DNA from: a virus
Reading direction: 5' to 3' (one strand)
DNA: 21,838 nucleotides
Virus record (IMG/VR): IMGVR_UViG_3300009170_000034
Span: 1 to 21,838 of that record
Positions 118 through 19,899 of this stretch are shown piece after piece. How positions within the stretch are numbered: the first letter of the stretch is position 1; every line of letters starts with the position of its first letter. Made by a program: the position numbers and the translations under genes. Below the pieces are notes generated by a model that searched no databases, had not been told where the DNA came from, and saw nothing but the letters and a program-made list of their open reading frames with translations.

Positions 118-3100
118 TGGCAGAACGTAATATATCTTCCACATTAAAAATATCTCTACAGAATAATGAGCCTTTCCTTTACTATCACTTAGTAAAATTT
201 GAAAAGCCCAAACCCTCTGCCGCGGAAGGCGCTACCACAGAAAAGGGTACGGATTATGTTTATGTTACTGATGCCCCTCACACCGTAAAGTGGGATGATT
301 TATCTTTAGATTCTCAAGGTCTAGCTAATGGAATTCAAACTTATCATGCAAATAGAATCCTAAATATAGGAACAATGCAAGAAAGTACAGAAGCTAGAGC
401 TTCTACCATGTCTCTTACTTTATCTACTATAGCACTGGGTACTACGGTTACTACACCTTTTCAAATGATTGTAACTATAGATCACAGTGAACTATCTTTC
501 GGAGAAGTTAACCTTATAGAGTTAGGTTTCAGAGAGGGGGATAAAATTAAATTAGAACTAGTAGCTAATGACTGGATTACAGGCACCCCGTATAGTGAGA
601 ATGACCTTGCAGAGTATCAAGGTATTATATATGCGTGTATATTAACTCATGCAGATTCTACAGGCAAAGAACCAGGTACTATTGGTGGTGCTTCTTATTG
701 GGAACAATCTAACCATGATAAATATGGAAGAATAGACAGATTTATTGGAAGTGGAACTTACCCACTTCATGCTAATATTATTATTACCCCTGTAGATACA
801 GGGTTCAGAACTGACGGTATAACCTACAGTTATACTCTTACTTTAGTTTCAGAAGAATTAACAACCCTTACTTCAGATAAATCTGCTACTACTTACTCTA
901 ACTATGTGAATAGGGAAGTATATATTTATAGAGCACATACTAACCCATCTACGGGTGTATTAATAGGGGATCCATTTCTATTATTTAAAGGAATTATAGC
1001 AGAAGGAAGTATACAGGAAAGTCCGCATGATACATCAACAATAACTTGGACTATTTCTAGTCATTGGGGAGACTTTGTACGTGTACAAGGTAGACTTACT
1101 TCTGATGCATCACACAGAGCATTAAGCTTAACAGGTAAGACAGATACTGAAGCCCTTTTACGCCCAGAATATGCTACAGATTACGGATTCATGCACGCAG
1201 ATAGATCTGTGAATGTTTTAGGTACTTATCAAACTCAAGAACTACGCTATAAGATGAAGAAGCGTGGTGGTCTAGCTGGTTGGCTGGGGGGTAGAAAAGT
1301 AAAAGAATACTACGAGACAGTAAATAATGATGTAGATTTACGTTTTAACTTAACCTCCAAATATCTACCTATTGTATATGGTGTACAAAAAGTAAGTAGT
1401 ATTCCTATATTTGCAGATATTGACCATTTAGATCCCTCAGAATTCTTTGTTGCTTTCGCACTATGTGAGGGTGAAATTGGAGGAATCTATGATATACATA
1501 TAGAGGATCAGCCTTCTGTATGTTCGGATTTAGAAGATTGGACAGTACGTGAGCCTACCCATGGGGGTACAGCAACCGATGAAGATAGTAACGTATCTGT
1601 ATATTGTTATGGTAGATCAGATAGAGGAGATGTATTAGCAGGAAACTCTTATATTAGTAATACTGAATCTACAATCCCATATTCTGATGGTACAGATCCC
1701 GATTATACTTTATATACGGGAGATGGGGCTACATGGGGAAGAATACCACGTGAAATAGGCAGAGATATAGGTGATGGAGTATATGCCTTCAGTCCTCTTG
1801 ATAATACACCTTCTCCTACAGGCATAACTCATGAAACTTCTTTCACTTTTACAATTCCTATGGATGCTACTTTTATTGCTCATACAGGTAAAGCAGATCA
1901 AAGAGCAAATGAATTGTTAGTAGATAAAGCTAACCATAGAGAATTCAAAATTCAAGTAGACTATTATGATGGAGACTCAAGTAACTATTGGGGTACTTCA
2001 CATCAATTACTAGATACTGCTTATGTTGTGGGAGCTTTCAAATTATCTGAAGGCGAAGAAACTATCCCACAATATGACTTTGTGGTAAAAGGTAAGTATA
2101 TAGAATGTTATAACTATGATTTTAGTTATGGTAAAAATCCCGTTCATACTAGTGATGATGTAGCTAACTTTATGCTTGGTGATACGGTAACCTTATCTCG
2201 TAGAATTCCTAGCACAGGAGTTTGGGAGGTAGCTCATGCTAATGTACAAATTAAAGATAAATGGTATTTTTATGATAATAATAAAGTACAACAATGGAGA
2301 TTCCGTTGGATTTACGGAACACCCGCTACAACTTTTGTTGATTTAACTTGTAGTAACGATGAAATAGCTAAAGAACTGAAAATGGAAGGTGGCGGTAATA
2401 CTTGGTATATGCATACCCATGAATACGCTACTACAGAAGGAGATGTAATAAGTCCTCCAGTAGTTTCAGCTACAGGTGCTGCTTATTTAGATCAATCAGG
2501 AGTAGGAGAATTAAAAATCACTCTGGATTCTGGAGATCCAGACTATGCAGCACTAAGTGCTCTATTAAGTGGGACTGCAACAAGCAAAGAAGTTTACATT
2601 GGAGTTTCTTCTGATCCCACATATTCTTTCTTAGTTACCGGATATGCGGCACCTGTAATAACTTTAGCGCCTCATACAGGTGCAGGCTATGTATTAGTTA
2701 ATCAACTTTTTGGTGGACAAACCAAAGTATTTGTAGCTAATATGGCATATCTAACAACTATTACCAATGTTAAAGTCGGTGATACTTTAGATGTTTATAG
2801 AGTTACTAATGGTATAGTAGAAACTAGACAGAAAACTATTTCTTATATCTATAACAATTATGCCTTTACTCAATCAGTATATGATCCAGCCTTTATACCA
2901 GGATTATATTCAGATTATTACACTGATCTTCCTGACTACGACACATATCAGGCCGGGCCTTTTAATGATATGCGAGTATCTATAAATCCTGCAATACAGC
3001 TATTAGATTATTTAACTAGTACTAAGTATGGTAGAGGTTTACAAATAGGAAAGGATTTAAATCTTTCATCATTCTTAAATAGTGCGAAACTGTGTGATGA

Positions 3101-6100
3101 TGAATCTAAAGTTACGGTAGTACAGTTAGGTAGCCTTACTGGTGTATCTATTGGGGATAAGTTTGAGTACAGACGAGATGATTTGGGGGTACCAGGTGGA
3201 CAGCCTCACTTAGTTTTCCAAGGAACAGTATCTTCTATTAGTTCCCATAATGGATATTCACAAATAGTTTTTGATGATGTTATAGGAAAATTAGGTTATC
3301 AATGGAGTGATTGGAGAGATTTTCAAATTGGAGATCTAATTTGGGGCTTTGATAGAGCTAAAGTTGTGACTTCTGGTATGCTGACTGGAAGTAAGGTAAC
3401 CTATGCAAGTTTTATAGATGATACGACTTACCCTCCTATTGCTATAGGTAATACTTATGAAACTATACCACTTACTGAATGTGCTCCTGAACAGGGCAGC
3501 GCAACTATATCAGTATCCACTGAGAGACTTGGGGGCCTGAAAAATTCTAATAATATTGTTAGATCTTGGACAGCGGATGATAATGGATTCACCTCACCCG
3601 GATATACTTTACATGACTCTGATGAAGTTAAGTATTGGAAATATTTAGGTTGGGAGGCACCAGAGCAACGCTTTGTAACTCGTCACCAATTAAACCAAGT
3701 AGTAAATACAAGTACTCCGATATTTGATAATATCAATTCTATGTTAATTCAATTTAACGGAATATTAAGGTATTCTAATGGGGCTTATGAATTAGATATT
3801 AAATCCGGCTCAGCACCTGTTAGTGACCCATACTGGGAAACTGGGATTAATTCCCTGTCAGAAGATGATATTATTGGAGATATTAAATTAGACGATAAAG
3901 GGCAAAAAAACTCTTATAATAGTATATCAGCAAATATAATTGATCCAAAGAATAAGTTCGGTGCAAGAAATATTTCTTTCTTTAATTCTACGTACCTAAA
4001 GCAGGATAAAGGCATACCTAAACAAGGTACTTTTGCTATGCCTGGTATTAGTAATTTCTTCTCAGCCAGAACTAATATTAAACAATACTTAGATGAGTCT
4101 AGGTATGGGTTATCTATATCCTTTAAAATGGATCCTAAGGGGTATTTATTACTTGCAGGGGAAATTATACGAATAAACTACAATAGATTTAAGTGGGTTA
4201 ATAAACTTTTCCGTATAGATAATTTAACACTAGAAAATTCAGGTTTAGTGCAAATAACTGCTACAGAGCATAATGATGAAGCTTATCTGATAGATTACAG
4301 TGATAGAAATTCTATGGATAATAATAAGGATAGCACGGCTAATCCTTCGCCTGTATTAATTCAACCACCTACAGGCTTAGCAGCTACGCAAGATTTAAAG
4401 GGTACAATCAGGCTAAATTGGACTCATTCTTCTTCTTATGATACAAATATACACTGGGTAGAGATTTGGGGTGTAGAAGCTACAAAAGATATAAATGGAA
4501 ATTATACACATGACATAGACCCAGAAACCTATGATGGTAACGATAGGGCTCTAGCTATTCCATTAGCTACTATTCAATCTGATGCATGGCCACATACAGG
4601 ATTTGATGAGCAAAGTTTACATGTGTACTTTTATTGGGTACGATATGTAAGACCTGCCAGCCCTCGTAACCCTAAATCTTATTACTCACCTTGGGAACCT
4701 TTAGGGGTTAATCTAGGGGTGGAAGGTCGTGCATTGAGTGCTTCTGGGGCAGATGCTTATACTATTGAATTGTTGCCTAATCCTATTATATTACAGGCAG
4801 ATTCTAATGGAAATATTGATCCCAGTGCTTATGTAAATACTGAAACTACAGTTAAAGCTTGGAGAGGACCTCTACCTTTAGATGCAGTAACAGGAACTCC
4901 TGGAGCGAATCAGTTTAGTGTTACTTCTCAACTATTAAACGGTACGATCGGAATTCCAGGTTCTGGTTCAGCAGTAGGTCAAACTGTATCTTTCGCAGCT
5001 ATGAGTAATATGACTACTAGTATTGCTAATGTTAAATACAATGTAAAACTAGAATCTGATACTAACATACTTTCTGTAATACAATCTATTACCAAGAATA
5101 TTAAAGGGGCAGATGCTTGGGATATAGTAGGTTCTAACGTTGAACATATATTTATAGCGGATGCCGCAGGCGAAGTATTGACTAATGATTTTAGTACTTT
5201 CTTTGATGTCTCTAAAGCAGGGGAAATTTATATATGGGATAACAGTAATCCCTATGATCTGCAAAGTTATCGTTATGGCGCTGTAGCGGGTAGTGGTCCT
5301 GAAGTAGTAGCGCAATATGATGCTAATGGTACTATTACGATTACAGGAGCTTCTACAATTTTAAATGCTGGAGGGCCAACTTCCGGGTATATTGATGTTC
5401 CTTTTTTACAATATGATGGCCAGGCCATATATACTAGACGTATAAGCCTGAAAAAAGTATTCTCAGGTATTAGAGGCGGACAAAGTTTCATTTTTGAAGA
5501 ATCGGCATATGGAGCAGAATTAACAGATGCTCATGTTGTATCTTGGACAGGGACTTTGGATTATACTACTGCGGTAGCTGTTGCACAGTTAGCTATTAAT
5601 GCTTCTTTGGATGGATTTATACGTCCAAATGATCGTATTACAGTTACTGATAATGAAGCTAACTTGGCGGGTACTCGTATTTATACAGGTAATGGAACTG
5701 ATAATGCTGCAACAGTTACTACAGGCAACTTCAGTTCACTTGTAGTCGAAACTTTCAGTGGTAGTGTTATTGTAGATGGCACTCTAAGTGGGGATAAATT
5801 AGTAGCTGATGCAGGTATATTTAATAACTTATTGGTAGGTAGTAATTTAGTTATAGGTGCTCAAGCTCCTGGGCCTCAAGCGTATGCAGGACAGTTATAT
5901 TCTTACCAAAAAACATCTTTCGGAGATTCAAGCCCTGGGTTCTTTATGGATCATGATGGATATTTCGATGTTGGAGATGGTTCTGGGTATATGCGATATG
6001 ATCCGGGATTAGGCCAAGTATCTATTAAAGGAATTGTAAATATTACTAGCGGTAACGCACAAATAGTTACTTGGAACGCGTATGGAACTTGTACTTTAGA

Positions 6101-7808
6101 TGCCTATAATAATAAAGTTTCTAAGTCTGGTGCGGATACTTATGATGGTAGCGTTATTAGCAATACTGCTTTAGGTTGGGGTGTCACTGCTGTACTTAAT
6201 CCAGCAAATACATATCAGGCTCTCATTTTTGGGCTTGCCTTAAATCAAAATACAGGTACTTTTACTGGTTCCGATATAGATTTTGGGTTTAGATTAGACC
6301 CGGGAGCTAATTTAGCATATATAAGAGAGGCTGGTGTAGAAAGTTGGGGTAGTTTCCCATATGTAACAGGTGATAGGCTTCAAGTTGTATATGAAGGCAC
6401 TTCTGTTAGATATATGATTGGTATAACTACTGTAGCTACAACTACAGGACATGCAGCAGGTGGCGTATATTTCTGGAAAGGTGTATTTTCTACTCCCGGT
6501 ACAGACATAACACAACAGATTGCTATTGTAGAAGGTGCTGGCTCTAAAGGGGAAACGGGAGACACAGGTGCTGATGGTGCTGATGGGGCTGATGGAGCAG
6601 GTGCTGTAACTATTCATTATACTAATTCTTCTCATGCTGTACCCGTTACTAATACTAATGTAGAGACTTGGACAGGTAGTCAAGGCTTATTTTATGTTTA
6701 TGATGGTGCCTCCCTTTTAACATTAGATTCTAATACACAAACCGCTAGTGCTCCTCTAACTGTAGGTAGATATAATTTAAATATAACTCCAGTAAGTGGT
6801 AACACTTTAACAGAGCCGAATATTACTGGTTCCGGTACCACAACAGCTAGCTTAGGGATATGGGGTAGTAACTTAACTACTGCAACTGTGTATAGAATTA
6901 CCGCTTATATTAGGGATCTTGGAGACACTTTATATACTTTATCCCAGGATGTTAGTTTAACTCCTGCTTTTGAAGGTGCTGATGGTAGTAATGGTGCTGA
7001 TGGTGCTGATGGTGATAGTGCAGTCTCTATTAACCATACTAATATATCTCACGCTGTACCCGTTGCTATTTCAGGAGTTGCTAATTGGTCTGGAAGTCAA
7101 GCATTATTTTATGCATATGATGGTGCTTCCTTACTATCTTTAAATACTAATACACAAACTGGTAGTGCTCCTGTAACTGTAGGCAGATATAATTTGGATA
7201 TAAATTGGGTAAGTGGAGATACTCTAACAGAACCAGCTATTACTGGAGCAGTTGGAACAACAGCTACTTTAGGTGTATGGGCAGGTACTTTAACTCAAGC
7301 TACTGTTTATAGGGTTACAGCTTATATCAGAGATTTTGGGAATACCTTATATACATTATCTGTAGATGTTAGTTTGACCCCTTCGAAAGATGGAGAATAT
7401 GGATCTGGTATGTATTCCATTACTTCGGGAACTACTAGTACTGCAAAAGACAGGATTACTGTTAGTCTTATAAATGGACAAACCGGAAGATCTTATGGCA
7501 TTAAAGGTGATACTTGTATAGTTGTAGCAAGTGATGGATCTCAGTCTAGTGCTTATAGATTAGGACCTATAACTACAGGAGCTCCTCGTTGGACTGAAGC
7601 TAATGATATCAATAGAAATGACTGGGATCCAGCGGGTTATTTCCTTGATGGTGACATGGTTGTCACTGGAAGTATAGATGCTAGGGAATTAAAGATCTCT
7701 AACCTTACCGCAGAGGGTGTGCAGGGAATCTGGATGGATGGCCCAAATAACTGTATTAAGATATATTCAGGTAGCCAACTAAGAGTTAAATTAGGTAAGT
7801 TATCTTAA
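117..7808 (+). CDS. Giant lambda-J-like tail tip / host-specificity protein
   Basis: This 2563-residue protein is most likely the central tail-tip protein that contacts the host, more than twice the length of lambda J (about 1130 aa). A strong ribosome site (GAAGGAGG) sits 10 bases before the ATG. Seen in order: a segment around residues 378-435 (YLPIVYGVQKV) resembling the J-family N-terminal region; YGRGLQIGKDLNLSSF near 970; a J-type stretch at about 1189-1233 (STPIFDNI, FNGILRYSNGAYEL); a fibronectin-III-like region at 1417-1535 beginning PPTGLAA; DUF1983-like text near 1885 (VDGTLSGDKL); a possible ConA-like lectin module at 1982-2141; and two related domains at 2163 and 2302, each preceded by Gly-X-Y triplets. 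The C-terminus again has a J-like phrase (DMVVTGSIDARELKI). Receptor binding by the C-terminal half is inferred. There is no frameshift or internal stop. Confidence 0.9.
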   Translation: MAERNISSTLKISLQNNEPFLYYHLVKFEKPKPSAAEGATTEKGTDYVYVTDAPHTVKWDDLSLDSQGLANGIQTYHANRILNIGTMQESTEARASTMSLTLSTIALGTTVTTPFQMIVTIDHSELSFGEVNLIELGFREGDKIKLELVANDWITGTPYSENDLAEYQGIIYACILTHADSTGKEPGTIGGASYWEQSNHDKYGRIDRFIGSGTYPLHANIIITPVDTGFRTDGITYSYTLTLVSEELTTLTSDKSATTYSNYVNREVYIYRAHTNPSTGVLIGDPFLLFKGIIAEGSIQESPHDTSTITWTISSHWGDFVRVQGRLTSDASHRALSLTGKTDTEALLRPEYATDYGFMHADRSVNVLGTYQTQELRYKMKKRGGLAGWLGGRKVKEYYETVNNDVDLRFNLTSKYLPIVYGVQKVSSIPIFADIDHLDPSEFFVAFALCEGEIGGIYDIHIEDQPSVCSDLEDWTVREPTHGGTATDEDSNVSVYCYGRSDRGDVLAGNSYISNTESTIPYSDGTDPDYTLYTGDGATWGRIPREIGRDIGDGVYAFSPLDNTPSPTGITHETSFTFTIPMDATFIAHTGKADQRANELLVDKANHREFKIQVDYYDGDSSNYWGTSHQLLDTAYVVGAFKLSEGEETIPQYDFVVKGKYIECYNYDFSYGKNPVHTSDDVANFMLGDTVTLSRRIPSTGVWEVAHANVQIKDKWYFYDNNKVQQWRFRWIYGTPATTFVDLTCSNDEIAKELKMEGGGNTWYMHTHEYATTEGDVISPPVVSATGAAYLDQSGVGELKITLDSGDPDYAALSALLSGTATSKEVYIGVSSDPTYSFLVTGYAAPVITLAPHTGAGYVLVNQLFGGQTKVFVANMAYLTTITNVKVGDTLDVYRVTNGIVETRQKTISYIYNNYAFTQSVYDPAFIPGLYSDYYTDLPDYDTYQAGPFNDMRVSINPAIQLLDYLTSTKYGRGLQIGKDLNLSSFLNSAKLCDDESKVTVVQLGSLTGVSIGDKFEYRRDDLGVPGGQPHLVFQGTVSSISSHNGYSQIVFDDVIGKLGYQWSDWRDFQIGDLIWGFDRAKVVTSGMLTGSKVTYASFIDDTTYPPIAIGNTYETIPLTECAPEQGSATISVSTERLGGLKNSNNIVRSWTADDNGFTSPGYTLHDSDEVKYWKYLGWEAPEQRFVTRHQLNQVVNTSTPIFDNINSMLIQFNGILRYSNGAYELDIKSGSAPVSDPYWETGINSLSEDDIIGDIKLDDKGQKNSYNSISANIIDPKNKFGARNISFFNSTYLKQDKGIPKQGTFAMPGISNFFSARTNIKQYLDESRYGLSISFKMDPKGYLLLAGEIIRINYNRFKWVNKLFRIDNLTLENSGLVQITATEHNDEAYLIDYSDRNSMDNNKDSTANPSPVLIQPPTGLAATQDLKGTIRLNWTHSSSYDTNIHWVEIWGVEATKDINGNYTHDIDPETYDGNDRALAIPLATIQSDAWPHTGFDEQSLHVYFYWVRYVRPASPRNPKSYYSPWEPLGVNLGVEGRALSASGADAYTIELLPNPIILQADSNGNIDPSAYVNTETTVKAWRGPLPLDAVTGTPGANQFSVTSQLLNGTIGIPGSGSAVGQTVSFAAMSNMTTSIANVKYNVKLESDTNILSVIQSITKNIKGADAWDIVGSNVEHIFIADAAGEVLTNDFSTFFDVSKAGEIYIWDNSNPYDLQSYRYGAVAGSGPEVVAQYDANGTITITGASTILNAGGPTSGYIDVPFLQYDGQAIYTRRISLKKVFSGIRGGQSFIFEESAYGAELTDAHVVSWTGTLDYTTAVAVAQLAINASLDGFIRPNDRITVTDNEANLAGTRIYTGNGTDNAATVTTGNFSSLVVETFSGSVIVDGTLSGDKLVADAGIFNNLLVGSNLVIGAQAPGPQAYAGQLYSYQKTSFGDSSPGFFMDHDGYFDVGDGSGYMRYDPGLGQVSIKGIVNITSGNAQIVTWNAYGTCTLDAYNNKVSKSGADTYDGSVISNTALGWGVTAVLNPANTYQALIFGLALNQNTGTFTGSDIDFGFRLDPGANLAYIREAGVESWGSFPYVTGDRLQVVYEGTSVRYMIGITTVATTTGHAAGGVYFWKGVFSTPGTDITQQIAIVEGAGSKGETGDTGADGADGADGAGAVTIHYTNSSHAVPVTNTNVETWTGSQGLFYVYDGASLLTLDSNTQTASAPLTVGRYNLNITPVSGNTLTEPNITGSGTTTASLGIWGSNLTTATVYRITAYIRDLGDTLYTLSQDVSLTPAFEGADGSNGADGADGDSAVSINHTNISHAVPVAISGVANWSGSQALFYAYDGASLLSLNTNTQTGSAPVTVGRYNLDINWVSGDTLTEPAITGAVGTTATLGVWAGTLTQATVYRVTAYIRDFGNTLYTLSVDVSLTPSKDGEYGSGMYSITSGTTSTAKDRITVSLINGQTGRSYGIKGDTCIVVASDGSQSSAYRLGPITTGAPRWTEANDINRNDWDPAGYFLDGDMVVTGSIDARELKISNLTAEGVQGIWMDGPNNCIKIYSGSQLRVKLGKLS
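6540..6602 (+). repeat. Collagen-like Gly-X-Y stretch 1 in the tail protein
   Basis: Codons for residues 2142-2162 encode seven consecutive Gly-X-Y triplets (GSK, GET, GDT, GAD three times, GAG). The three GAD triplets are tandem copies of a nine-base unit close to GGTGCTGAT (6567-6593), so this DNA could change length by slippage. In phage fibres such stretches commonly act as trimeric linkers; that role here is inferred. Confidence 0.85.
6603..6968 (+). repeat. Tandem tail domain, copy 1
   Basis: Residues 2163-2284 (beginning AVTIHYTN) form the first of two homologous domains. The next copy starts 139 residues later. Shared segments include SHAVPV, YDGASLL, TVGRYNL, TLTEP, TVYR, TAYIRD and DVSLTP. 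The composition is rich in Thr, Ser and Tyr with regular beta-like spacing, as in Ig-like or receptor-binding fibre domains; the fold is inferred. Confidence 0.85.
6975..7019 (+). repeat. Collagen-like Gly-X-Y stretch 2 in the tail protein
   Basis: Residues 2287-2301 encode five Gly-X-Y triplets (GAD, GSN, GAD, GAD, GDS). They lie just before the second tandem domain, as stretch 1 lies before the first. The linker plus domain therefore appears to have been duplicated as one unit. Confidence 0.85.
7020..7385 (+). repeat. Tandem tail domain, copy 2
   Basis: Residues 2302-2423 (beginning AVSINHTN) repeat the preceding domain with many substitutions, concentrated near the start and middle of the module. 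The strand-like blocks YDGASLL, TVGRYNL, TAYIRD and DVSLTP are unchanged. The divergence at both DNA and protein level shows an old duplication, not an assembly artefact. Confidence 0.85.
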
Positions 7809-7810
7809 TT

Positions 7811-9070
7811 TTAAATAGTAAGAGGCCCTGGATATCTAGGGCTTTCTGCTTTTATAGCTACCAAAACTGCACAAGTTACCAGAATATTGTGATCTTTCAT
7901 AAATTGATTTGGATAATAGGTAGTTTTTTTAAATTCTTGAAATCTAATATCTGTGTTATCAATAAAAATAGCCTGTTCTTTATGGGTGTAGTATAAAAAA
8001 GAGTTTTCATTCCAAAAACTTACATGGGTGGGATCTTGCCAAGCCCCTCGGCCATCCGTGCTTGGAACTTCTATAAAAACCCAACCGCCTGGTGCCAAAA
8101 CTCTATGAATCTCAGCCATTATTTTTCTAGTATCATTTAAATGTTCTAAAATATGGTGGGCATGCATAACTCCTACGCTATTATCTGGTAGTGGTATACC
8201 ATCATTAAGATCTGCTACATAGTCAGCATTTTCTCTTATATCTATGGTTTTATAATCTGAATAAGGGTACAGCCCTCCACCCAGATCTATCTTTAGAAGT
8301 CCTCTATCTACTGCATCTTTTTCTGCTAATGCTCTGACATGAATATCAAATAGTTGCACAGTAGTATCTTGGATTAATTGATTACGAGCTAACCAGGTAT
8401 TATCCCCTGTAATTCTATATACATACAAAGGTTTAGTGTTAAACTTTATTTTTGTAGCTAAATAGGTGCGAATACACAGCTCGTGATCATCACATACAGA
8501 TAGTTTTGAATTATGCCCACCAATTTGTTTATATACGGAAGTACGCCAAGCTCTTACATGATCTGGAGCAAACCAAATATAACATAAACTATGGCTAGTA
8601 GCGGGAAAATGATTCATAGAATAACATTCTTTACCATTCCAATTATATGTTTTGTATGTCCATCCCATAGCAGGATTAAATGGTATAAACTTATCTTCCA
8701 TATGATTCACAATAGAATTACTATAAACAAACCCTATAGTTTCATCCTGAAAATCTTTATTTAGTTCATATAAACAGTCTGTAGTTAATAAGTCATCATG
8801 ATCTACTTCTACTAATATATCTCCCGAACCTAAATGGAAAGCTAAATGTTTGATAGCTCCTATGTTAGGTTCTGGATTTTCATTTACATATATAGATACT
8901 TTTTTATTAGCGCGTATTACTTCGGGAAGTTCTTCCTGCTTCATACCATTATTTAAGTATAGAACCCACTCCCAATTAGTATAAATCTGACTAGTTATAC
9001 TATAGTATAACTCTAATAAGAAAGGTAAATTTTTAACTGAGTGGGTTGGTGTTATAATACTAAATTTCAT
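7811..9070 (-). CDS. Fusion of a family 2 glycosyltransferase and a SAM methyltransferase
   Basis: This 419-residue protein has two enzyme halves. Residues 1 to about 245 are a GT-A fold, family 2 glycosyltransferase: it opens FSIITPTHS, and an acidic metal/nucleotide-sugar motif (VEVDHDDLL) lies near residue 90. Residues about 258-415 are a class I SAM methyltransferase: IDLGGGLYPYSD as the cofactor glycine motif, LPDNSVGVMHAHHILEHL as the post-I region, and RVLAPGGWVFIEVP as the typical later strand. The likely job is adding a sugar and methylating it or a neighbouring residue; the acceptor is unknown. It is the last gene of the leftward operon and starts one base after the previous stop. 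A GAAG-type ribosome site lies about nine bases before the ATG. I see no signal peptide or membrane segment. Confidence 0.85.
   Translation of the reverse strand: MKFSIITPTHSVKNLPFLLELYYSITSQIYTNWEWVLYLNNGMKQEELPEVIRANKKVSIYVNENPEPNIGAIKHLAFHLGSGDILVEVDHDDLLTTDCLYELNKDFQDETIGFVYSNSIVNHMEDKFIPFNPAMGWTYKTYNWNGKECYSMNHFPATSHSLCYIWFAPDHVRAWRTSVYKQIGGHNSKLSVCDDHELCIRTYLATKIKFNTKPLYVYRITGDNTWLARNQLIQDTTVQLFDIHVRALAEKDAVDRGLLKIDLGGGLYPYSDYKTIDIRENADYVADLNDGIPLPDNSVGVMHAHHILEHLNDTRKIMAEIHRVLAPGGWVFIEVPSTDGRGAWQDPTHVSFWNENSFLYYTHKEQAIFIDNTDIRFQEFKKTTYYPNQFMKDHNILVTCAVLVAIKAESPRYPGPLTI
7823..7853 (+). terminator. Probable rho-independent terminator of the tail gene
   Basis: A nine-pair stem (7823-7831 with 7836-7844, core GGCCCTGG, two G-T wobbles) closes a four-base ATAT loop and is followed by TTTC and then TTTT by 7853. 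It begins 14 bases after the tail stop codon and suits rightward termination. On the other strand it has no trailing U run. It lies inside the last codons of the convergent leftward glycosyltransferase gene, so the two 3' ends overlap as transcripts. Confidence 0.55.
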
Positions 9071-9071
9071 A

Positions 9072-9683
9072 TTAATTCTTCTGATAAGCTATTTTTTTAC
9101 GGGAATAGTCTAATAGATGCCATTTACGTGTAGCACCTATTACATTATGTAATGCATCAATATCGAAATAATCAATATCATCAATAACTAGGGTTGCGCC
9201 AGAATACATCCTATCATTGAACCAATTAAATTCATTAATTAAAAGATTTAAATGATGTGGGCCATCTAAGTGTGCAAAAATATACTTATTTAATATATAT
9301 TCAGATTCTTTATAAATAGGTACTCCATCTTTATATCTATTAAAAAACTGTTCATCAGTTAAATTCATAAATATAAAATTAACTCCTAAAGCCCCTGCGT
9401 ACTTGTAACATAAACCTATAGTTTCATCTCGCATAGTATTAGTATAATCTAATCTAGTAATTACTCCCTCTGAGGGAGCATATTCTATATTTCCATATGG
9501 ATCTATAGCTACATGAGTTCTCTCTGGGGATACTCTTTTAGCCAAAGCATCCATAATAACTTTACTTCCATAACCCCTACGAAGACCAATCTCACAAGTT
9601 AGACCTTCCTTATGGGCGGGTATAGCTTCTATAGCTCTAGTAATTATTTCATAATTACTGCTATCGCCTTCAAATTGTTCCAT
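9072..9683 (-). CDS. Class I SAM-dependent methyltransferase (Methyltransf_24-like)
   Basis: A 203-residue methyltransferase of the type that includes TylF-like O-methyltransferases and cephalosporin-hydroxylase relatives. Visible motifs are EIGLRRGYGS (31-40, SAM glycine loop), AIDPYG (59-64), AHLDGPHH (137-144) and GATLVIDDID (162-171), the last two likely to hold metal-binding acidic residues. A longer reading from a GTG at 9698 exists. I chose the ATG at 9683 because it overlaps the previous gene's stop as TAATG and has GGGAG eight bases upstream. Lying between two glycosyltransferase genes, it probably methylates a sugar hydroxyl on the same glycan. The substrate is inferred. Confidence 0.8.
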   Translation of the reverse strand: MEQFEGDSSNYEIITRAIEAIPAHKEGLTCEIGLRRGYGSKVIMDALAKRVSPERTHVAIDPYGNIEYAPSEGVITRLDYTNTMRDETIGLCYKYAGALGVNFIFMNLTDEQFFNRYKDGVPIYKESEYILNKYIFAHLDGPHHLNLLINEFNWFNDRMYSGATLVIDDIDYFDIDALHNVIGATRKWHLLDYSRKKIAYQKN

Positions 9684-11332
9684 TATTCTATCTCCCACAT
9701 CACAGTACCTTTATGGCGACATTTTATAGATGTATCACAAAATACTTTGTAACCTTTATTTCTAGCCTTTAAAAAGAAATCATTATCCTCACTAAAAGTA
9801 TCTTCATATTTCCAAGCTTGATGATAGAAGAATTGCGGATAACCTACATCTTTATAAACCTGCGTTTTTACTAGAACACAGCCAAAACCTGCACCGCCTA
9901 TTTCTAATAGTTGATGTTCTTTTAATTTCTCAAAAGGTATATTATGATAATTAGTATCATAAATTTCAACTACCTGCTCTGGTCTACGCATACGATACAT
10001 ACCAGTTATTATATCTTTATCGTGAGATAACATTTTAACTAGCATATCTTTAGGTAGCTCCATATCACTATCTACAGATAAAACGTAATCATATCCACAG
10101 TTAATAGCATAGTTGGCTATCTGATTACGCCCAGCATCTATCATATAACACCAGAAGAAGTTGAAATCTGTTCTAAATCCTACAGGTATTTGCAAATCAT
10201 ATATAGACTTAAAAGTTTCTGGTTCAATTTTTACAGCAGAAGGTATAGCTATAAGAATAGACTTATCCTTTAAATTTACTTGTTTATATGGTAACATTTT
10301 TTTAATTCCTTTAAAATGGTCATCCCATTCTTTTGCTACGTGATTCCATTGACTATTATTTATAATATTAAAACCTTCATTACGTTCTTTATCTCCAGCG
10401 GCTAAATAAGCTTCATGTACTTTAGCTACAAAGGCCTCTGGATATGCAAGAGGGCTAAGACTGCATTTAAATGATGCATTATCTATTGCAGTAGTCTCTA
10501 GTGCGCCAATATTCCAAGTTATTGGTATTGCGCCATAAGCATGAGCTTCTAAAGTAGATATGCCAAAAGTTTCTGGAAATACACAGGGATAAATAAAATA
10601 ACTAGCCCCTGCCATATGTCTAGCTACTTCTTCGGGTTTTAGAATACCAGTAAAAGTTATCTCATAAAAAGCATTCTCATATACTTGTGTATCATCAGAA
10701 AAATTTCTACTTATGTACTTAGCGTTATCATCATTTAAACCTTCATAGTAGCCACCAATTACTTTAAGTTTAGCACTAGGTATTATGGTTTTAACTTTAG
10801 GCCAGATCTCTTTTATGAGTAAATCTAAACCTTTATACGCAGCCGCATTAAATATAAACTGATCTTTATCTTTATTATATATTACATCATAATGATGATA
10901 CCCATTACGAGTCTGAAATATTTTATCTCTAGGAACTTGTAGTTGTATCATGGTATGTTGAGTATGCCAATCACTTAAAGTAAAAACTTCATTGATTTTG
11001 CACTCATTTAGTAATCTAACTATATTCTCATCGCCAGGACAATATGTATCATGTCTCCATAAAATTACATGCTTAGCGGCTGGAATGAATGATATACTTC
11101 TTAAAACTATAGCTATATCACACTGTTTACATTCCAGTATATTTTTATAGTTCACACCATTGTATACGCCTGGCTTTTCACAGTTATTATAAACTGTTAC
11201 ATTATAACCAAGTTTAACTAATTCTCTAGACATATAAATAACAGAGGACTCAGAACCTCCAAGTCCTCTGTGTTCTAAAGTATCACCCGTATAGGGTAAG
11301 CCTACTGCATCTATAAATGCTATATCTCGCAT
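9683..11332 (-). CDS. Two-domain GT4-GT2 glycosyltransferase
   Basis: This 549-residue protein joins two glycosyltransferases. The N-terminal part (to about residue 345) is GT-B fold, family GT4-like: a GLGGSES donor loop at 23-28, a FTGILKPEEVARHM region, and the conserved PETFGISTLEAHAYG block near 252-267, whose Glu normally contacts the donor sugar nucleotide. From about residue 354 (KDKSILIAIPS) a GT-A/GT2-like domain follows, with LSVDSDMELP near 419 as the DxD motif and later WKYEDTFSEDNDFF. The ATG at 11332 is preferred over an in-frame TTG at 11347, because AGGTGG lies just upstream and the fragment then overlaps the reductase gene by 13 bases. Two sequential sugar transfers by one polypeptide is an inference. 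Confidence 0.82.
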   Translation of the reverse strand: MRDIAFIDAVGLPYTGDTLEHRGLGGSESSVIYMSRELVKLGYNVTVYNNCEKPGVYNGVNYKNILECKQCDIAIVLRSISFIPAAKHVILWRHDTYCPGDENIVRLLNECKINEVFTLSDWHTQHTMIQLQVPRDKIFQTRNGYHHYDVIYNKDKDQFIFNAAAYKGLDLLIKEIWPKVKTIIPSAKLKVIGGYYEGLNDDNAKYISRNFSDDTQVYENAFYEITFTGILKPEEVARHMAGASYFIYPCVFPETFGISTLEAHAYGAIPITWNIGALETTAIDNASFKCSLSPLAYPEAFVAKVHEAYLAAGDKERNEGFNIINNSQWNHVAKEWDDHFKGIKKMLPYKQVNLKDKSILIAIPSAVKIEPETFKSIYDLQIPVGFRTDFNFFWCYMIDAGRNQIANYAINCGYDYVLSVDSDMELPKDMLVKMLSHDKDIITGMYRMRRPEQVVEIYDTNYHNIPFEKLKEHQLLEIGGAGFGCVLVKTQVYKDVGYPQFFYHQAWKYEDTFSEDNDFFLKARNKGYKVFCDTSIKCRHKGTVMWEIE

Positions 11333-13530
11333 AATCCACCTGCGCAAGCTGCGCTAGCCATAGTATCAATTTCAATATATTGAGGTTTAATATCTTCTTT
11401 ACTCCAATCTATATCTATCAGGTTGGATGTAATCTTACACCATTTGTGATAATTATATATATCTTTTAGGCAGTAAGTACAAGTACCCATATCACCATTA
11501 AAATAATTATCAGCAAATTTCTTAGCGCGTCTTACCCAATCTCGCTGTAAAACTAGAGATGTTCCTTTGTTTTCTAGTTTCGCTTTGCCCATCGATACGG
11601 CACAAGCAAGCCACAGATCATCATTGAAGGCGTGCATTCCATCCACGATAAGCCCTGAGGCGAATAAAGCGGCATCCCCATAGAAGTCCATGAGTTGCGC
11701 TCTTGTGAAAACTTCTGTGAAAGGTGCTTGAGGATAGTCCTTGTCACCCGTGATACCCAACAACGATATACCGGCAAAATCTTCTCTGCCTTCGTAGATA
11801 TAGTCTCTAACTTCATCCCAGTTTCCTACTTGTATTGTATTTGAAACATTGTGTCTAACTAAAGGATTTACACACAATTCTTCATTAGTTCCGTACTCTA
11901 CCCAGTTGTTTTGTGTTAATCGCACTAATTCAAGCTGATTGATACCAACTAAATGGCGTTTGAACAAACTGTCCTTCGGCGCAACTACAGGAATCGAGAA
12001 AACCCAATCTGTGCCTTCTGGATTCCATACACTTTCTTCTACAGCTTCGGGGTTGCAGCGAGCAAAAATCTTTGCTATATCATTACTCTTGTTCATCTGC
12101 ATATTACGGAAATAACGTGGAGCATGCTCTCCGTGAATACCAGAAGCCGAAGCTAATAGTACAGAGGCATTTCCGCTTGGTTTGACGCAAGTTGTTCGTG
12201 CGGCTTGTCTAATTCCGAGCATCCTAGAAACGATCTTATTTGTGATCTTAACAATCTCTGCCCCTTCTCGTTGAACTTCTTCATCGAATAAGACGTCGGG
12301 GTTATTACACCACCCCGTTGCAGATACTCCCAACAAAGCTTCGCGCTCAAAGATTTCCCTTGTCGTCTGCCCCAGATATTTGAAGTTGGTGTAACCCGCT
12401 TGAAGTGTTGCCATGATAGCAGCTGCTCTGCATGCTTCATAGAATCTTGTTGCATTAATACATTTTCCACCATTTATCTCCACTAAATTACAGCCTTGCC
12501 ATCCAGGTATTCCTGTTTCAGTCATAGGCCACATACCGATTTCAACACATGGATTTACACATATATCTAAATCATCAACCCATACGAAACCTGGTTCTCC
12601 AAATTGTTTTACGCTTTCAAAAAGAGCTGCAAATTCTTCAAAAGTAGTGCTATCACGTTTAAGCATTGCAGAATTATTAGATCTTGCTCTTTGTGGATTC
12701 TCTACTCTCCAGTTTCCTGTCTTAGCCTCTAGCATTTCTATGTCATCATGACTAAAGAGGCAAATCGTCGCGGAGCGACGTACTCCTCCGCTTAGGACAG
12801 CCTGCGTCATATGCATAACATAATCATAAGCTAAAATAGGAGTCCAATGAGTATGTTCATGATTACCTATGAACTTATCCATTAACTGCTCTATTTTACC
12901 AATGGCATTGCGTAGACCCTCTGGGCCTGGCGCTTTAAAACCACCAGTAATTTTCGAATCTTTAGGCCTTATTCTAGAGTAATCAAAGGCTACGTGATGC
13001 CCTTGGTATTCTGGAAAAGGAGCATTGAAACGTGTACTAGTGTAAGAACTTACTAAAACTCCAATAGCATCGGACCAACCCTCAATTTCATCCTCAATTA
13101 TAAAGGTTTTCGCCTCTTTATCTCTAGGACATAATGGAGGAAGTTGATCTATATGATGAAACTGTACTGAGAAGCCCGCACCGCAGCCACATAGTAAAAA
13201 ATACATAGCTTCCTGGAAGAACTTCAATCTGTTGACGTGGCTAGATACACAATTGTACATCTTCGCCTCGTGCTTCAGCATGGGCGCTCCGCCCCATTGA
13301 AGCGCACGTTGAGATCCTAGAATCTCAAAATTTAAGTACGCTTCTTCAGCATAGTCAATAAGTCTGCTTAACTCAGGATTTTGCGCAATTTGAACCGAAT
13401 ACTTAGTTCTGTGCATATTCATAACACGGGTTACACTATCTTCCCAGTTTTCTACTATTCCTTTTTCCTCGTCAAAACGAGAATAATCTGTATAATACTT
13501 AATACTACTAGCTAATGCGCTACCTTCCAT
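11320..13530 (-). CDS. nrdJ: Adenosylcobalamin-dependent ribonucleoside-triphosphate reductase (class II)
   Basis: This 736-residue enzyme reduces ribonucleotides to deoxyribonucleotides using coenzyme B12; its length matches the monomeric RTPR of Lactobacillus leichmannii (739 aa). Early text (YSRFDEEKGIVENWEDSVTRV) matches that family's N-terminus. Catalytic residues can be placed: Cys94 and Cys347 as the likely redox pair, NPCVE with Cys328 as thiyl-radical site and Glu330, and a C-terminal swinging pair Cys729/Cys734 in CAGGLCEI that would be recharged by thioredoxin. The ATG has AGGA seven bases upstream and follows the previous stop by two bases. G+C is uneven: 60-base blocks at 11641 and 12121 count 53% and 50%, against 28% at 11401 and 33% at 12841. 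It supplies dNTPs for phage replication. Confidence 0.93.
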   Translation of the reverse strand: MEGSALASSIKYYTDYSRFDEEKGIVENWEDSVTRVMNMHRTKYSVQIAQNPELSRLIDYAEEAYLNFEILGSQRALQWGGAPMLKHEAKMYNCVSSHVNRLKFFQEAMYFLLCGCGAGFSVQFHHIDQLPPLCPRDKEAKTFIIEDEIEGWSDAIGVLVSSYTSTRFNAPFPEYQGHHVAFDYSRIRPKDSKITGGFKAPGPEGLRNAIGKIEQLMDKFIGNHEHTHWTPILAYDYVMHMTQAVLSGGVRRSATICLFSHDDIEMLEAKTGNWRVENPQRARSNNSAMLKRDSTTFEEFAALFESVKQFGEPGFVWVDDLDICVNPCVEIGMWPMTETGIPGWQGCNLVEINGGKCINATRFYEACRAAAIMATLQAGYTNFKYLGQTTREIFEREALLGVSATGWCNNPDVLFDEEVQREGAEIVKITNKIVSRMLGIRQAARTTCVKPSGNASVLLASASGIHGEHAPRYFRNMQMNKSNDIAKIFARCNPEAVEESVWNPEGTDWVFSIPVVAPKDSLFKRHLVGINQLELVRLTQNNWVEYGTNEELCVNPLVRHNVSNTIQVGNWDEVRDYIYEGREDFAGISLLGITGDKDYPQAPFTEVFTRAQLMDFYGDAALFASGLIVDGMHAFNDDLWLACAVSMGKAKLENKGTSLVLQRDWVRRAKKFADNYFNGDMGTCTYCLKDIYNYHKWCKITSNLIDIDWSKEDIKPQYIEIDTMASAACAGGLCEI

Positions 13531-13532
13531 AA

Positions 13533-13796
13533 TTATTCCTGTATAAGCTTGCGCAACTCTTGTTCCGCCTTTAATAATTGTTTGTATCTTTTTACTGTGA
13601 GAAACGCTCCAGTCATTTTAAACTCTGTGGTATCAAAATCTCCATCTTCAATAGTCATTTCAGCATTTTCAAGTAGAAAATGCGCTAATTGTCTAGCTAA
13701 ATTACTTTTAACTATTTGTTCTAAATGGCCTTCCTCATTAAATTGATGAGCTGCTAATCTAGTCATACAATATTGTGCTGTTACTAATTCTTTCAT
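13533..13796 (-). CDS. Small acidic protein of unknown function
   Basis: An 87-residue protein without a recognised family. It is predicted mainly helical and acidic (EDGDFDTTEF in the middle, ending in a charged LLKAEQELRKLIQE helix), with no Cys pair, signal peptide or membrane segment. I chose the ATG at 13796 because it overlaps the exonuclease stop as ATGA with GGGA just upstream; an ATG two codons earlier (13802) is possible. It lies between the flap nuclease and the nucleotide reductase, so a role in replication or nucleotide supply is possible but unproven. Confidence 0.75.
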   Translation of the reverse strand: MKELVTAQYCMTRLAAHQFNEEGHLEQIVKSNLARQLAHFLLENAEMTIEDGDFDTTEFKMTGAFLTVKRYKQLLKAEQELRKLIQE

Positions 13797-14632
13797 AACC
13801 ATCCCATAATTCTTCTAATATCCTGTATATTATCCTCACCGATAGCATCATCACAGTATTCTAGTAAATCCATCAGCTCATAGTTTAATAAAATACGTTC
13901 TGGATGTGCATTCAGATCTTCCATATACTTGTATTTACTTTCAATAGGTAGTGCATCATAAATATCAAAAGCTGTTCCATATTGATTAACTAAATCAGCT
14001 GCACGTTTTGGTCCTATTTGAGCAAAGCCTTTAATATTATCTCCAGAATCTCCCAACATAACCTTATAGGAAATGTACTGTTCCTTAGGAGTATCATAAT
14101 GCTCATTCCAGTTTTCTAAAGTATATTCTTTGCGAGTCACATAAGAAAATTGAGATACGCCCTCTTGTACTAAAAGACCCCAATCTCGATCTGAACTTAT
14201 TAGCCAGATATTTTCTAATTCGTACTGTTCTTTATACTTTACTAAATACGCTGCAATATCGTCAGCTTCTACACCTTTATATCTTAGTACTATATACTTC
14301 TTGCCGATTTCTTCTAAAGTTGCTTCAAATTCATCAAAAAAGGCTTCAAATGCCATCTTTTCTTCTTCTGTCTGATCTTTAAATCTTTCAGATCTATCAG
14401 CCTTGTAAAGTGGATCTAAGTTCTTTCTATATGTGGAAGAACCCCAATCCGCGGCAATTATAATCTTTTTAGCCTTATAAGAGGCTGCTAAAGACTCTAC
14501 TGTTTGTATAAAATCGAAACGAAAATCATTTCGACCTTGATGTTTCCACCGGAAAGCTAAGTTTAGTGCATCCACTATCATAGTATTCCAGGGATTTGCA
14601 TCAAGGATTTTTTCTTTAAATGTAAAAGCCAT
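13793..14632 (-). CDS. 5'-3' exonuclease / flap endonuclease (T5 D15-like)
   Basis: A 279-residue member of the FEN/PolI-5' nuclease family, which removes RNA primers and 5' flaps. Metal-binding acidic motifs are present in order: Asp21 (MIVDALNLAF), Asp62, VEADDIA (121-127), SSDRDW (146-151) and LGDSGDNI (193-200). A helix-hairpin-helix follows directly (GFAQIGPKRA, 202-211). The tyrosine- and lysine-rich arch (YKADRSERF, 76-84) is intact. It has no polymerase domain, like the stand-alone T5 and T4 enzymes. GGAGG lies six bases before the ATG, which directly abuts the previous TGA. It works with the neighbouring Mre11/Rad50 and resolvase genes. Confidence 0.93.
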   Translation of the reverse strand: MAFTFKEKILDANPWNTMIVDALNLAFRWKHQGRNDFRFDFIQTVESLAASYKAKKIIIAADWGSSTYRKNLDPLYKADRSERFKDQTEEEKMAFEAFFDEFEATLEEIGKKYIVLRYKGVEADDIAAYLVKYKEQYELENIWLISSDRDWGLLVQEGVSQFSYVTRKEYTLENWNEHYDTPKEQYISYKVMLGDSGDNIKGFAQIGPKRAADLVNQYGTAFDIYDALPIESKYKYMEDLNAHPERILLNYELMDLLEYCDDAIGEDNIQDIRRIMGWL

Positions 14633-14827
14633 TCAATCCTCCGCGTCTTGGTGATATATTGAAAAATCTATATCACTATTGTCTATGCTTTGTTCTAACT
14701 CTTTCAGTCTTATCTCTAGTTTTTCCTGGTTATTGTTAGAGTAGCAGGTAAAACAGATAGGGGTATCCCCCGTATGGCCTTCTGTTCTTTTATCACAAAA
14801 AACACAAAAACCCTCATATACTGGCAT
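14633..14827 (-). CDS. Small four-cysteine zinc-finger-like protein
   Basis: A 64-residue protein with two CxxC knuckles (Cys8/Cys11 and Cys25/Cys28) spaced like a zinc ribbon, then a charged helical tail (EKLEIRLKELEQ) and an acidic end. The reading frame can be extended back to 14869 inside the resolvase gene. The ATG at 14827 is preferred because GGAG lies eight bases upstream and the resolvase stop is only two bases before it. Such small zinc proteins in phage replication operons may bind nucleic acid or a partner enzyme; the specific function is unknown. Confidence 0.72.
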   Translation of the reverse strand: MPVYEGFCVFCDKRTEGHTGDTPICFTCYSNNNQEKLEIRLKELEQSIDNSDIDFSIYHQDAED

Positions 14828-14829
14828 AA

Positions 14830-15273
14830 CTATTCTCCTAGAAATTCTACTATTTCGTTTTCCAACCATTCTTCCGCTAATAACACGTATGCATCTAGCC
14901 AGGCTATATATAAATACATTCCAGTATTTTCTGGTTTTACCTGCGTTACTACAAATATTTTTGATCTATTATACTTAAAAAATAGAAGGGGCTCTTGATC
15001 ACCTCCCAGCGCTTGTACTAATAATTTATTCCACCATCTAATGAGGTTATTAGTTTTCAACGCTGTAAAGAGAGTATCATTAAGTGGGGAACTTTCATAA
15101 TTCTTTACTTCTATGCAGAATTTATTTCTTTTAAGTGGAATATATAAATCACCTTTTAAATAATCTAATGCACCCGAGGAGGGGACTCTCTCAAACTGAT
15201 ATCCCGTCCATTCTCTTAACATATCTCGTACTATATATTCCCCACGAGCTCCTTTAGCTCTACTGTCTACCAT
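14830..15273 (-). CDS. Hjc-like PD-(D/E)XK endonuclease, probable Holliday junction resolvase
   Basis: A 147-residue nuclease whose N-terminal half carries the full Hjc/PD-(D/E)XK signature: RAKGARGEY with Glu12, the VPSSGALDYLKGDLYIP segment with Asp42, and IEVKNYE with Glu55 and Lys57. Archaeal-type resolvases use exactly this arrangement (G-x-x-x-E, S-G, D, E-x-K) to cut four-way junctions. The C-terminal half, rich in Trp and Tyr, is unlike Hjc and may provide specificity. It overlaps the preceding small gene by 14 bases. Resolving replication or packaging intermediates made by the Mre11/Rad50 and helicase genes is the likely role; a general repair nuclease is the alternative. Confidence 0.82.
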   Translation of the reverse strand: MVDSRAKGARGEYIVRDMLREWTGYQFERVPSSGALDYLKGDLYIPLKRNKFCIEVKNYESSPLNDTLFTALKTNNLIRWWNKLLVQALGGDQEPLLFFKYNRSKIFVVTQVKPENTGMYLYIAWLDAYVLLAEEWLENEIVEFLGE

Positions 15274-15430
15274 TCTTTTTATTCTCTATAAGTTTATTCA
15301 ACTTATCCCTGGCTGCTTCAGCCAATTTCATATCTATATCCCAATCATCTTTTATATTGAGAAGGATGAGTCTAGTTAGTGCTATATCTAGTGCTCTAAC
15401 ATCTTCTAATACATTACCTCCAAAAGCCAT
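15260..15430 (-). CDS. 56-residue small protein, unknown function
   Basis: A short gene filling the space between the Rad50-like and resolvase genes. The protein begins MAFGGNVLEDV, is strongly helical and ends in a basic tail (ENKKNGRQ). GGAG is six bases before the ATG, the Rad50-like stop lies three bases upstream, and its end overlaps the resolvase start by 14 bases. That spacing is the operon's normal pattern, which argues that it is translated. No cysteines, signal peptide or known motif are present. Confidence 0.75.
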   Translation of the reverse strand: MAFGGNVLEDVRALDIALTRLILLNIKDDWDIDMKLAEAARDKLNKLIENKKNGRQ

Positions 15431-15433
15431 ACT

Positions 15434-17230
15434 TTACTCCAATATGCTAATTTTGCCTCGGTTTACTACTGTTATTTTATTTAGTAAAGGATGCATCCAG
15501 CCGTGACTTACTACATAAGTGTTCAATTCCTCTTCCTGAAGAAGCACTTCTACTAGTTTTTCCTTGCCTTCGTCGTCCAAAACACTTATTACTTCGTCTA
15601 AGAATAATACGTTGATTTTGGACTTAGATATACTGCTCATCAGCTTACGTATAGCAAGCAGCGTAGCAGTATTTACTCTGGCTAGTTGTCCTGAGGATAA
15701 TTCCTCTATATCTACCGTAGCACCATTTTCTGTAATCATTACGTTTAGTTTATCATTATTAAGCACAAATTCTAAAGTAAACATTCCATCTGATAATTCT
15801 GATAAATATTGGTTTACTAATACTTCTAAATCCTTTACCATATTCTCTATCTTATAAGCTAAGAGACCATTTGTACTAAATGCCTTCTTTAACATTTCTA
15901 GGCTAGATAGTAATTCAACACTCTTTGCCATACTCTTCTTTGCTTTTTCTAAATCTGCTATAAAAGCGTCCGTTTGTTCTAAAATTACCTGGATTCTGGT
16001 ATTACGTTTTGTGCGTTCTTGGTCGATTTTAGATGATTCTTGTACGCGTTTTTTAGCGCCTTGTACGACTGTCTGTAAGTCGCGAATGCGCTTTTGAAGC
16101 TCATTCGCATCCAAAATACTCTGTGGTAGGTAAAGGTCAATACTTCTATAAAGATCTTCCCAGTCTTTTTGTAAATGACACTTTCTTGTATATTCTTCAT
16201 TATTTCTCTTAATTTCACTTATCTCCCCCTGTATTTCTGTGATTTTTTGCTCTGCGTATAATGCAATCTGTGTTTCTTTCTCTTCTAGATTTTTTTTAAA
16301 TAGAGGGTCTACTGGTTGTTCACAAACATGACAAGTATCTCCTAATTTACCTATTTGAAGTAACACCTTTCTAGCTGCATGTTTATCCGCTTCTAAAGTA
16401 CCTATTTCTTTTTGTAAGTGATCGTATGATAAAATCTGCGTCGCTTTTATACTATTTATTTCATTAAGGTTAATACCATCTAACATCTTCTTGAATTGAT
16501 TATTCGTTGCTATTTTTTTATTTTTTTGAGAAATATTTTCAAGTTCGGATGTAAGTTGACTCAGTGCCTTTTCTTCCATTTCCGTATTTATTTCTAAATT
16601 TATCATTGGCAGTACCGTAGTATCGGTCAATTTATTATCTTTTAACCATTTATCTATTGTGGCGATAGTGGCTTCGTACCCTGATACTTCTTGAGTTACC
16701 TCTTTCGCTGCTTCTTTAAAGATTTCAAATAAAGCAACATACTCCTCAAGATGTAAGAGGTCTATCAGAAATTTTTTGCGGTTGGTATCTGTAGCAGTTA
16801 AAAATTGTAACGAAGCTTTTGGATTTTGATAAACTAATTGTGAGAAAACTTTAAACTCATGCCCGAATAAATCTTGTATAGTTTGATATGTTGCAGTGGC
16901 CGTATGACTGGATATATCATCTCCATTTCTAAAAAGCTTCACTTTTATACTTGTTTTACGAACTAGGTCGATTTCGTACTCATCTTCATCAATTTGAAAA
17001 GTAAGATTAATCCAGTAGCCATCGTTAGCTATTCTATTTGGAATTGCGGCTTTCTTGACATTTTTAGAGTTTTTATTGAATAAAACTTCCTCTAAGATAA
17101 GAGGTATGGAAGACTTTCCCAGACCATTAGTACCTAAGATTTGAGTTAAGGTGGAATCTTTGAAGCATATTTTATTACCTTTCCCGAATCTAAAACAGTC
17201 AGACCATTGTAGTGTATCAAGTATAATCAT
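15434..17230 (-). CDS. sbcC: SbcC/Rad50-like recombination ATPase (T4 gp46 / T5 D13 type)
   Basis: This 598-residue SMC-like ATPase partners the Mre11-type nuclease encoded just upstream to process DNA ends. It shows a Walker A motif GTNGLGKS (33-40), two coiled-coil arms rich in Glu, Lys and Gln (about 180-290 and 310-470), a zinc hook CHVC (Cys300 and Cys303) at the hinge, an ABC signature LSSGQ (511-515), Walker B NVLFLDE (540-546) and an H-loop His576. The arms are short, as in phage versions, compared with about 1050 residues in E. coli SbcC. The start overlaps the nuclease gene by 14 bases and has GGGAG six bases upstream, consistent with coupled translation of complex partners. Confidence 0.94.
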   Translation of the reverse strand: MIILDTLQWSDCFRFGKGNKICFKDSTLTQILGTNGLGKSSIPLILEEVLFNKNSKNVKKAAIPNRIANDGYWINLTFQIDEDEYEIDLVRKTSIKVKLFRNGDDISSHTATATYQTIQDLFGHEFKVFSQLVYQNPKASLQFLTATDTNRKKFLIDLLHLEEYVALFEIFKEAAKEVTQEVSGYEATIATIDKWLKDNKLTDTTVLPMINLEINTEMEEKALSQLTSELENISQKNKKIATNNQFKKMLDGINLNEINSIKATQILSYDHLQKEIGTLEADKHAARKVLLQIGKLGDTCHVCEQPVDPLFKKNLEEKETQIALYAEQKITEIQGEISEIKRNNEEYTRKCHLQKDWEDLYRSIDLYLPQSILDANELQKRIRDLQTVVQGAKKRVQESSKIDQERTKRNTRIQVILEQTDAFIADLEKAKKSMAKSVELLSSLEMLKKAFSTNGLLAYKIENMVKDLEVLVNQYLSELSDGMFTLEFVLNNDKLNVMITENGATVDIEELSSGQLARVNTATLLAIRKLMSSISKSKINVLFLDEVISVLDDEGKEKLVEVLLQEEELNTYVVSHGWMHPLLNKITVVNRGKISILE

Positions 17231-18559: not shown

Positions 18560-18561
18560 AG

Positions 18562-18729: not shown

Positions 18730-18752
18730 TAATGAATTCCTTTCTATGGGCG

Positions 18753-18791: not shown

Positions 18792-18792
18792 A

Positions 18793-19425: not shown

Positions 19426-19426
19426 G

Positions 19427-19834: not shown

Positions 19835-19860
19835 ATAAATAGTTTCCGAATTAATAATAT

Positions 19861-19889: not shown

Positions 19890-19899
19890 GAACTATTTT

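Follow-up and report, generated by a model that had tools for sequence, protein, structure and literature searches.

Positions 1 to 21,838 of IMG/VR virus record IMGVR_UViG_3300009170_000034, an uncultured phage whose genome is incomplete, were analyzed as one stretch of 21,838 nucleotides (the window). Toward one end of its replication operon the window carries a cassette of three genes, here called A, B, and C, that combine three glycosyltransferase (GT) and two methyltransferase (MTase) domains (Table 1). We propose, with moderate confidence, that the three genes serve to make a short O-methylated glycan carried by a virion protein, the likeliest being a tail fiber or the fiber-bearing tail protein J. 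The domains, their predicted folds and catalytic motifs, the coupling of the genes, and the association of families A and C with fiber and neck genes in other phages are established.

The original prediction, made from the DNA alone, had described three adjacent overlapping or abutting genes with ends at 7811 and 11332, and this was correct. The ATG of A at 11332 is preceded by AGGTGG, and A overlaps the end of nrdJ by 13 nt; the stop codon of A and the ATG of B share 1 nt (TAATG), and 1 nt separates B from C. Given these overlaps and the 1-nt gap, the three genes seem to form a single translationally coupled unit that ends the replication operon. It was also right that the cassette is co-directional with the replication genes (minus strand) and belongs to the end of their operon. 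The contact with the tail gene, however, proved to be weak evidence. The stop codons of C and J are separated by 2 nt, J being on the plus strand. Since the two genes are convergent, touching J is no evidence in itself, and the support for a virion target comes from the relatives of the cassette. An overlapping 12-kb IMG/VR contig encodes the same cassette with 100% protein identity (393/419 residues of C).

All five predicted domains were found by Pfam and PHROGs or, for B, by the AlphaFold fold. Protein A gave Pfam matches above the cutoffs to Glyco_trans_1_4 (E 6.6e-11) and Anp1 (E 2.5e-7) and matched phrog_1574 (E 8e-22). In an alignment of relatives, the Asp residues of the DxD and ED motifs and a late His of its second domain were invariant. 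In a profile comparison this domain also matched STIV A197 weakly (2c0n, E 7e-4), the catalytic Asp151 of A197 (residue naming per PMC4187194) aligning with the ED motif of A. Protein C exceeded the cutoffs for Glycos_transf_2 (E 3e-8) and Methyltransf_11 (E 7.5e-12) and carries DHDD, CDDH, and EHL...EIHRVL in one chain. The structure comparison suggested in the original prediction returned GT matches for the C model (pLDDT 89.8); the best Foldseek matches all fell on the GT part and were SpsA, chondroitin polymerase (K4CP), TarS, TarP, and RmlT.

For B, the Pfam match to Methyltransf_24 (E 1e-4) was just under the cutoff, and the assignment came from the AlphaFold model (pLDDT 90.7), which has a class I/COMT-class O-methyltransferase fold. 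The top five Foldseek matches were to MeT1, a methylmannose-polysaccharide 1-O-methyltransferase (PMC9883506). Other matches were the sugar O-methyltransferases MycF, SpnH, and CalS11, together with plant and animal catechol-type enzymes, which fit the predicted fold almost as well as the sugar enzymes do. The similarity to MeT1, MycF, SpnH, and CalS11 was at TM about 0.5-0.65 and E 1e-8 to 1e-6, with 10-16% identity. The predicted structure thus belongs to the metal-dependent COMT/TylF-type class, although searches of the PDB by sequence, both single-sequence and profile, gave no match and hence no detectable kinship to a characterized member. In the alignment of relatives, D145 and D173 were invariant and D174 nearly so (208-aa numbering), a 28/29-residue spacing that we take to be that of the metal ligands in MycF and SpnH.

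The GT2-MTase fusion of C was found in at least 468 viral contigs. By comparison, 84,980 cellular genomes held three loci, only one of them full-length; this phage-like copy comes from a Spirochaetia metagenome-assembled genome, in which it sits beside a baseplate-type BppU_N gene on a contig of 4.3 kb. The locus counts that follow refer to the best 80 loci per scan; the loci are related by ancestry and IMG/VR contigs are redundant, so that p-values are only indicative. In 46/84 C loci the next gene, 24-66 nt downstream, was a homolog of the T4-type neck gene gp13, followed by gp14, gp15, terminase, and sheath genes. Typically upstream were collagen-like tail fibers, one or two 2-oxoglutarate (2OG)-Fe oxygenases, and a second GT2. 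A block of collagen-like fibers, 2OG-Fe oxygenases, GT2-DUF6445, GT2-MTase, and gp13 recurs in T4-like aquatic phages (contigs L063 and L117 and most C loci).

With one threshold throughout (at least six GXY triplets), a collagen-like open reading frame (ORF) was present within 8 kb upstream of C at 16/23 nonredundant C loci, compared with 8/43 gp13-anchored viral loci without C (Fisher 1e-4), a comparison made post hoc and subject to the same shared ancestry. Within the gp13 control set alone, which includes a single close C relative, GT presence was not associated with collagen (2/7 versus 7/30, p 0.62). Four isolates share these neck genes (Cr30, RN05-S, S-RIM2, and BUCT608); in them the slot holds structural or unannotated genes, with no annotated GT and no collagen repeats.

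A single-sequence scan of viral contigs with A returned only the overlapping contig, and an alignment-based search was needed to find relatives. Its GT4 then proved to have at least 450 viral relatives, few of them in isolate phages. Among the best 79, a GT2 was fused to the GT4 in 21 and encoded by the next gene in 51 (72/79 together), and the gene immediately before the GT4 was collagen-like in 40. A collagen-like ORF accompanied 49/56 longer A loci, compared with 1/69 B loci. The A and C families also occur together around collagen-like fibers in an unrelated T4-like contig (L062). Both are large, almost entirely uncharacterized phage enzyme families that are clearly linked to fiber and neck genes. 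In the collagen stretches near A, Thr fills 38% of third positions, but with 33% in the control stretches this was rejected as a specific signal.

In longer A relatives a single chain combines the GT4 with an FkbM methyltransferase and one or two GT2 domains, in one case also with a GT25; giant GT4/GT2/FkbM fusions of 1096-1584 aa were seen in L237, L241, L280, L284, and L259. The A protein of the window has neither the middle GT2 nor the FkbM domain. The window trio thus regroups the same kinds of domains. B-type genes were found after or near a GT4 in L013 and L133. In L128, L130, and L131, a B-type MTase lies beside a SIS isomerase, GHMP kinase, HAD phosphatase, nucleotidyltransferase, and GT4, which looks like a phage-encoded NDP-heptose pathway.

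Given the linkage to fiber genes, a fiber is the likeliest acceptor, with J only a candidate. J has two collagen-like GXY stretches (Table 1); its residues 153-187 also gave a weak match, below the cutoff, to carbohydrate-binding module 5/12. Since two J relatives with no cassette gene detected on the stretch examined share such short GXY runs, the collagen-like part does not identify the acceptor, and J as the necessary acceptor was dropped.

We suggest that the glycan would be assembled in the host cytoplasm during infection by soluble enzymes. One GT, either the GT2 of C or the GT4 of A, would attach the first sugar to Ser or Thr, and the remaining GTs would extend the chain from host NDP-sugars. 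B and the MTase half of C would methylate sugar hydroxyls, the fused MTase presumably capping the sugar added by the GT of its own chain. Such a glycan might shield the fiber or tune receptor binding.

Several observations weigh against this proposal. Transcription of the cassette in the window runs with the replication genes and opposite to the tail gene, which the cassette meets only convergently; early-gene expression is nevertheless compatible with a virion glycan, because the GT genes of PBCV-1 are also early (PMC9614988). The Synechococcus phage S-CRM01 carries C away from fiber genes, B relatives are mostly without fiber linkage, and, as noted above, GXY runs occur in J relatives with no detected cassette gene. 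The locus counts are not independent, and the acceptor, donor sugars, product, order of steps, and biological role are the parts of the proposal that we infer. Finally, the authors who described GTs in the fiber regions of pelagimyophages read them as modifiers of the host O-chain (PMC7029224).

That published interpretation bears on the strongest rival, which we nevertheless consider unlikely, namely, that the cassette modifies the host surface (the lipopolysaccharide O-chain or core, or another envelope glycan) during infection, for example, against superinfection or readsorption of progeny to debris. Polysaccharide synthesis typically involves GT4 and GT2 enzymes and sugar MTases, the GT part of C resembles the capsule and teichoic acid GTs K4CP, TarS, TarP, and RmlT, B-type genes occur with the NDP-heptose-like pathway, and the early-operon position would suit a need arising soon after infection. 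However, A, B, and C have no clear transmembrane segment (KD19 maxima 1.68, 1.18, and 1.22, respectively), and within the window there was no flippase, polymerase, or gtr-type family match, so that the features of gtr-type serotype conversion are missing there. Most C-type genes, moreover, lie between the fiber and neck genes of a late structural block, an odd place for an envelope enzyme. Replication-module backbones of the type seen in the window are those of lytic T5-like phages, to which lasting seroconversion would be of little use. The choice between virion and host surface is one that we infer.

Glycosylation and methylation of modified phage DNA bases against restriction would be the classical role of phage GTs, as in T-even phages (PMC9614988), and the position of the cassette at the end of a replication/nucleotide operon, in a genome that is incomplete, would allow for it. 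We regard it as highly improbable. In agreement with the original prediction, no base-hydroxymethylating enzyme was found in the window. The predicted folds (GT2, GT4, and sugar-O-MTase-like) are unlike known DNA GT folds, and the relatives are placed with fiber and neck genes. The complete C-bearing genome of S-CRM01 gave no match to PF00303 (thymidylate synthase/dCMP-hydroxymethylase) or to TET/JBP, the TET/JBP search being weak evidence as it had no positive control; PF00303 matched 3/23 records searched, the window being among the 23. The earlier ranking of a methylated glycan on the virion or host surface above DNA glucosylation is therefore supported by the S-CRM01 result, the intact motifs, and the placement of the A and C relatives.

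The genes might instead be an accessory set for another target (a small molecule, an intracellular polysaccharide, or another phage or host protein) or passengers without a strong function. B and C resemble in structure enzymes that act on substrates of several classes, catechol O-methyltransferases among them, which would fit such a role, but we find it improbable. Catalytic residues have not been lost, the motifs being intact and strictly conserved over hundreds of viral relatives, and this, like the tight translational coupling, argues against passengers; the repeated linkage to fiber genes points to a virion target. The cassette is confirmed as intact, and it is new in its domain grouping and its T5-like setting.

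A broader idea, which we put forward only tentatively and as a possibility that is open to doubt, is that many aquatic phages, from lineages that are not related, have in common a module for attaching a methyl-capped O-glycan to collagen-like tail fibers, a phage counterpart of collagen-type glycosylation of which the window would hold a compact three-gene version. The neighboring 2OG oxygenases, present in part of the loci, may hydroxylate the collagen-like fibers. No description of a fiber-oxygenase-GT module in phages was found in the literature, only that of GTs in pelagimyophage fiber regions (PMC7029224).

Table 1. Features of the window and the basis of their assignment
Feature	Position	Strand	Basis
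Gene C, 419 aa: GT2 (about 8366-9070) fused to Methyltransf_11-type methyltransferase (about 7814-8299)	7811..9070	-	Pfam, alignments, AlphaFold, Foldseek, relatives
Gene B, 203 aa: class I S-adenosylmethionine O-methyltransferase, DGPH...DD motif	9072..9683	-	Weak Pfam, alignment, AlphaFold, Foldseek, start on stop of A
Gene A, 549 aa: GT4 (about 10298-11332) and GT-A/GT2-like (9686-10267)	9683..11332	-	Pfam, PHROGs, start/Shine-Dalgarno/overlap, relatives
Class II (B12-dependent) ribonucleotide reductase NrdJ, upstream in the operon of the cassette	11320..13530	-	Sequence matches
T5-like replication/recombination block: exonuclease, Holliday junction resolvase, SbcC, SbcD, single-stranded DNA-binding protein (SSB), helicase	13793..21683	-	Gene order, sequence matches
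Tail tip/central fiber protein J, 2563 aa, convergent with cassette, candidate acceptor	117..7808	+	Gene order, weak PHROG "collagen like minor tail"
Collagen-like GXY stretch in J, aa 2142-2159, GSKGETGDTGADGADGAD	6540..6593	+	Sequence
Second collagen-like GXY stretch in J, aa 2287-2301	6975-7019	+	Sequence

The backbone of the window is T5-like, as judged from its gene order. The order tail J, exonuclease, Holliday junction resolvase, SbcC, SbcD, SSB, o135, and helicase is that of the T5-like Vibrio phage D386, whose replication/recombination block is 28-44% identical in protein sequence to that of the window, with the same order and orientation and likewise convergent with tail J. The interval from J to the exonuclease is occupied in D386 by straight and L-shaped fiber genes and a dUTPase, and in the window by the class II ribonucleotide reductase, a small ORF, and the cassette. 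The NrdJ protein is closest (51-53%) to the class II reductases of Rhizobium phage RHph_I1_18 and Pseudaeromonas phage KLEP7; neither phage appears to be T5-like. A DNA near-search of the window against phages gave no match, nor did a search with the PADLOC models of antiphage defense.

A consensus scan, the sole source of the signals that follow, indicated a terminator-like hairpin for J at 7822..7845 (+), within the 3' end of gene C, and a 14-bp hairpin with a U-rich stretch at 11241-11271 (-), in the 5' coding part of A, that might be an attenuator of the cassette. A perfect sigma-70 consensus promoter (TTGACA-17-TATAAT with TG) was located at 19861-19889 (-), upstream of o135 and SSB, and a strong hairpin terminator at 18759-18783, directly after SSB; the cassette is therefore probably served by another promoter. 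A 142-aa ORF at 18149-18577 (-) contains VIAHEFRHHW, which resembles an HExxH-type zinc metallopeptidase site, and had no PHROG or PADLOC match.

The occurrence of the A and C families beside fiber and neck genes suggests that virion glycosylation could be widespread among aquatic phages, and because an isolated phage, S-CRM01, carries C, this idea is testable. If it is true, glycosylated fibers would have a bearing on host recognition, particle stability, and competition between phages, and the fused enzymes could become new tools for making methylated glycans.

Several known systems share parts of this arrangement. Pelagimyophages, which are aquatic myophages, carry GT genes in a hypervariable tail-fiber region, but GT8 is the most represented family there (PMC7029224). 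In S-CRM01, SCRM01_090c is a full-length GT2-MTase fusion that is 54% identical to C; this phage, however, is a T4-like cyanophage with no A or B homolog beside the gene, which does not adjoin fiber genes. STIV A197 is a candidate GT for the coat protein of an archaeal virus (PMC10551542, PMC4187194), but it is a stand-alone single-domain enzyme that resembles only the second domain of A. In bacteriophages, virion glycosylation has been demonstrated for mycobacteriophages, in which the GTs are encoded by the phage and the glycans are carried by capsid and tail tube subunits (Freeman 2023, as cited in PMC12619734); set beside that cited account, the features seen here are the GT4-GT2 and GT2-MTase fusions and the fiber linkage. 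The closest proven analog in logic is the chlorovirus PBCV-1, in which A064R (GT-GT-methyltransferase) and the MTase A061L act on the capsid N-glycan (PMC9614988). PBCV-1 is a eukaryotic virus with other GT domains in another order and with a proven acceptor, and the likeness drawn here is one of described domain content. What the two would have in common is soluble viral GT domains together with class I MTases, one of the latter fused to GTs, and a methyl-capped virion glycan as the product.

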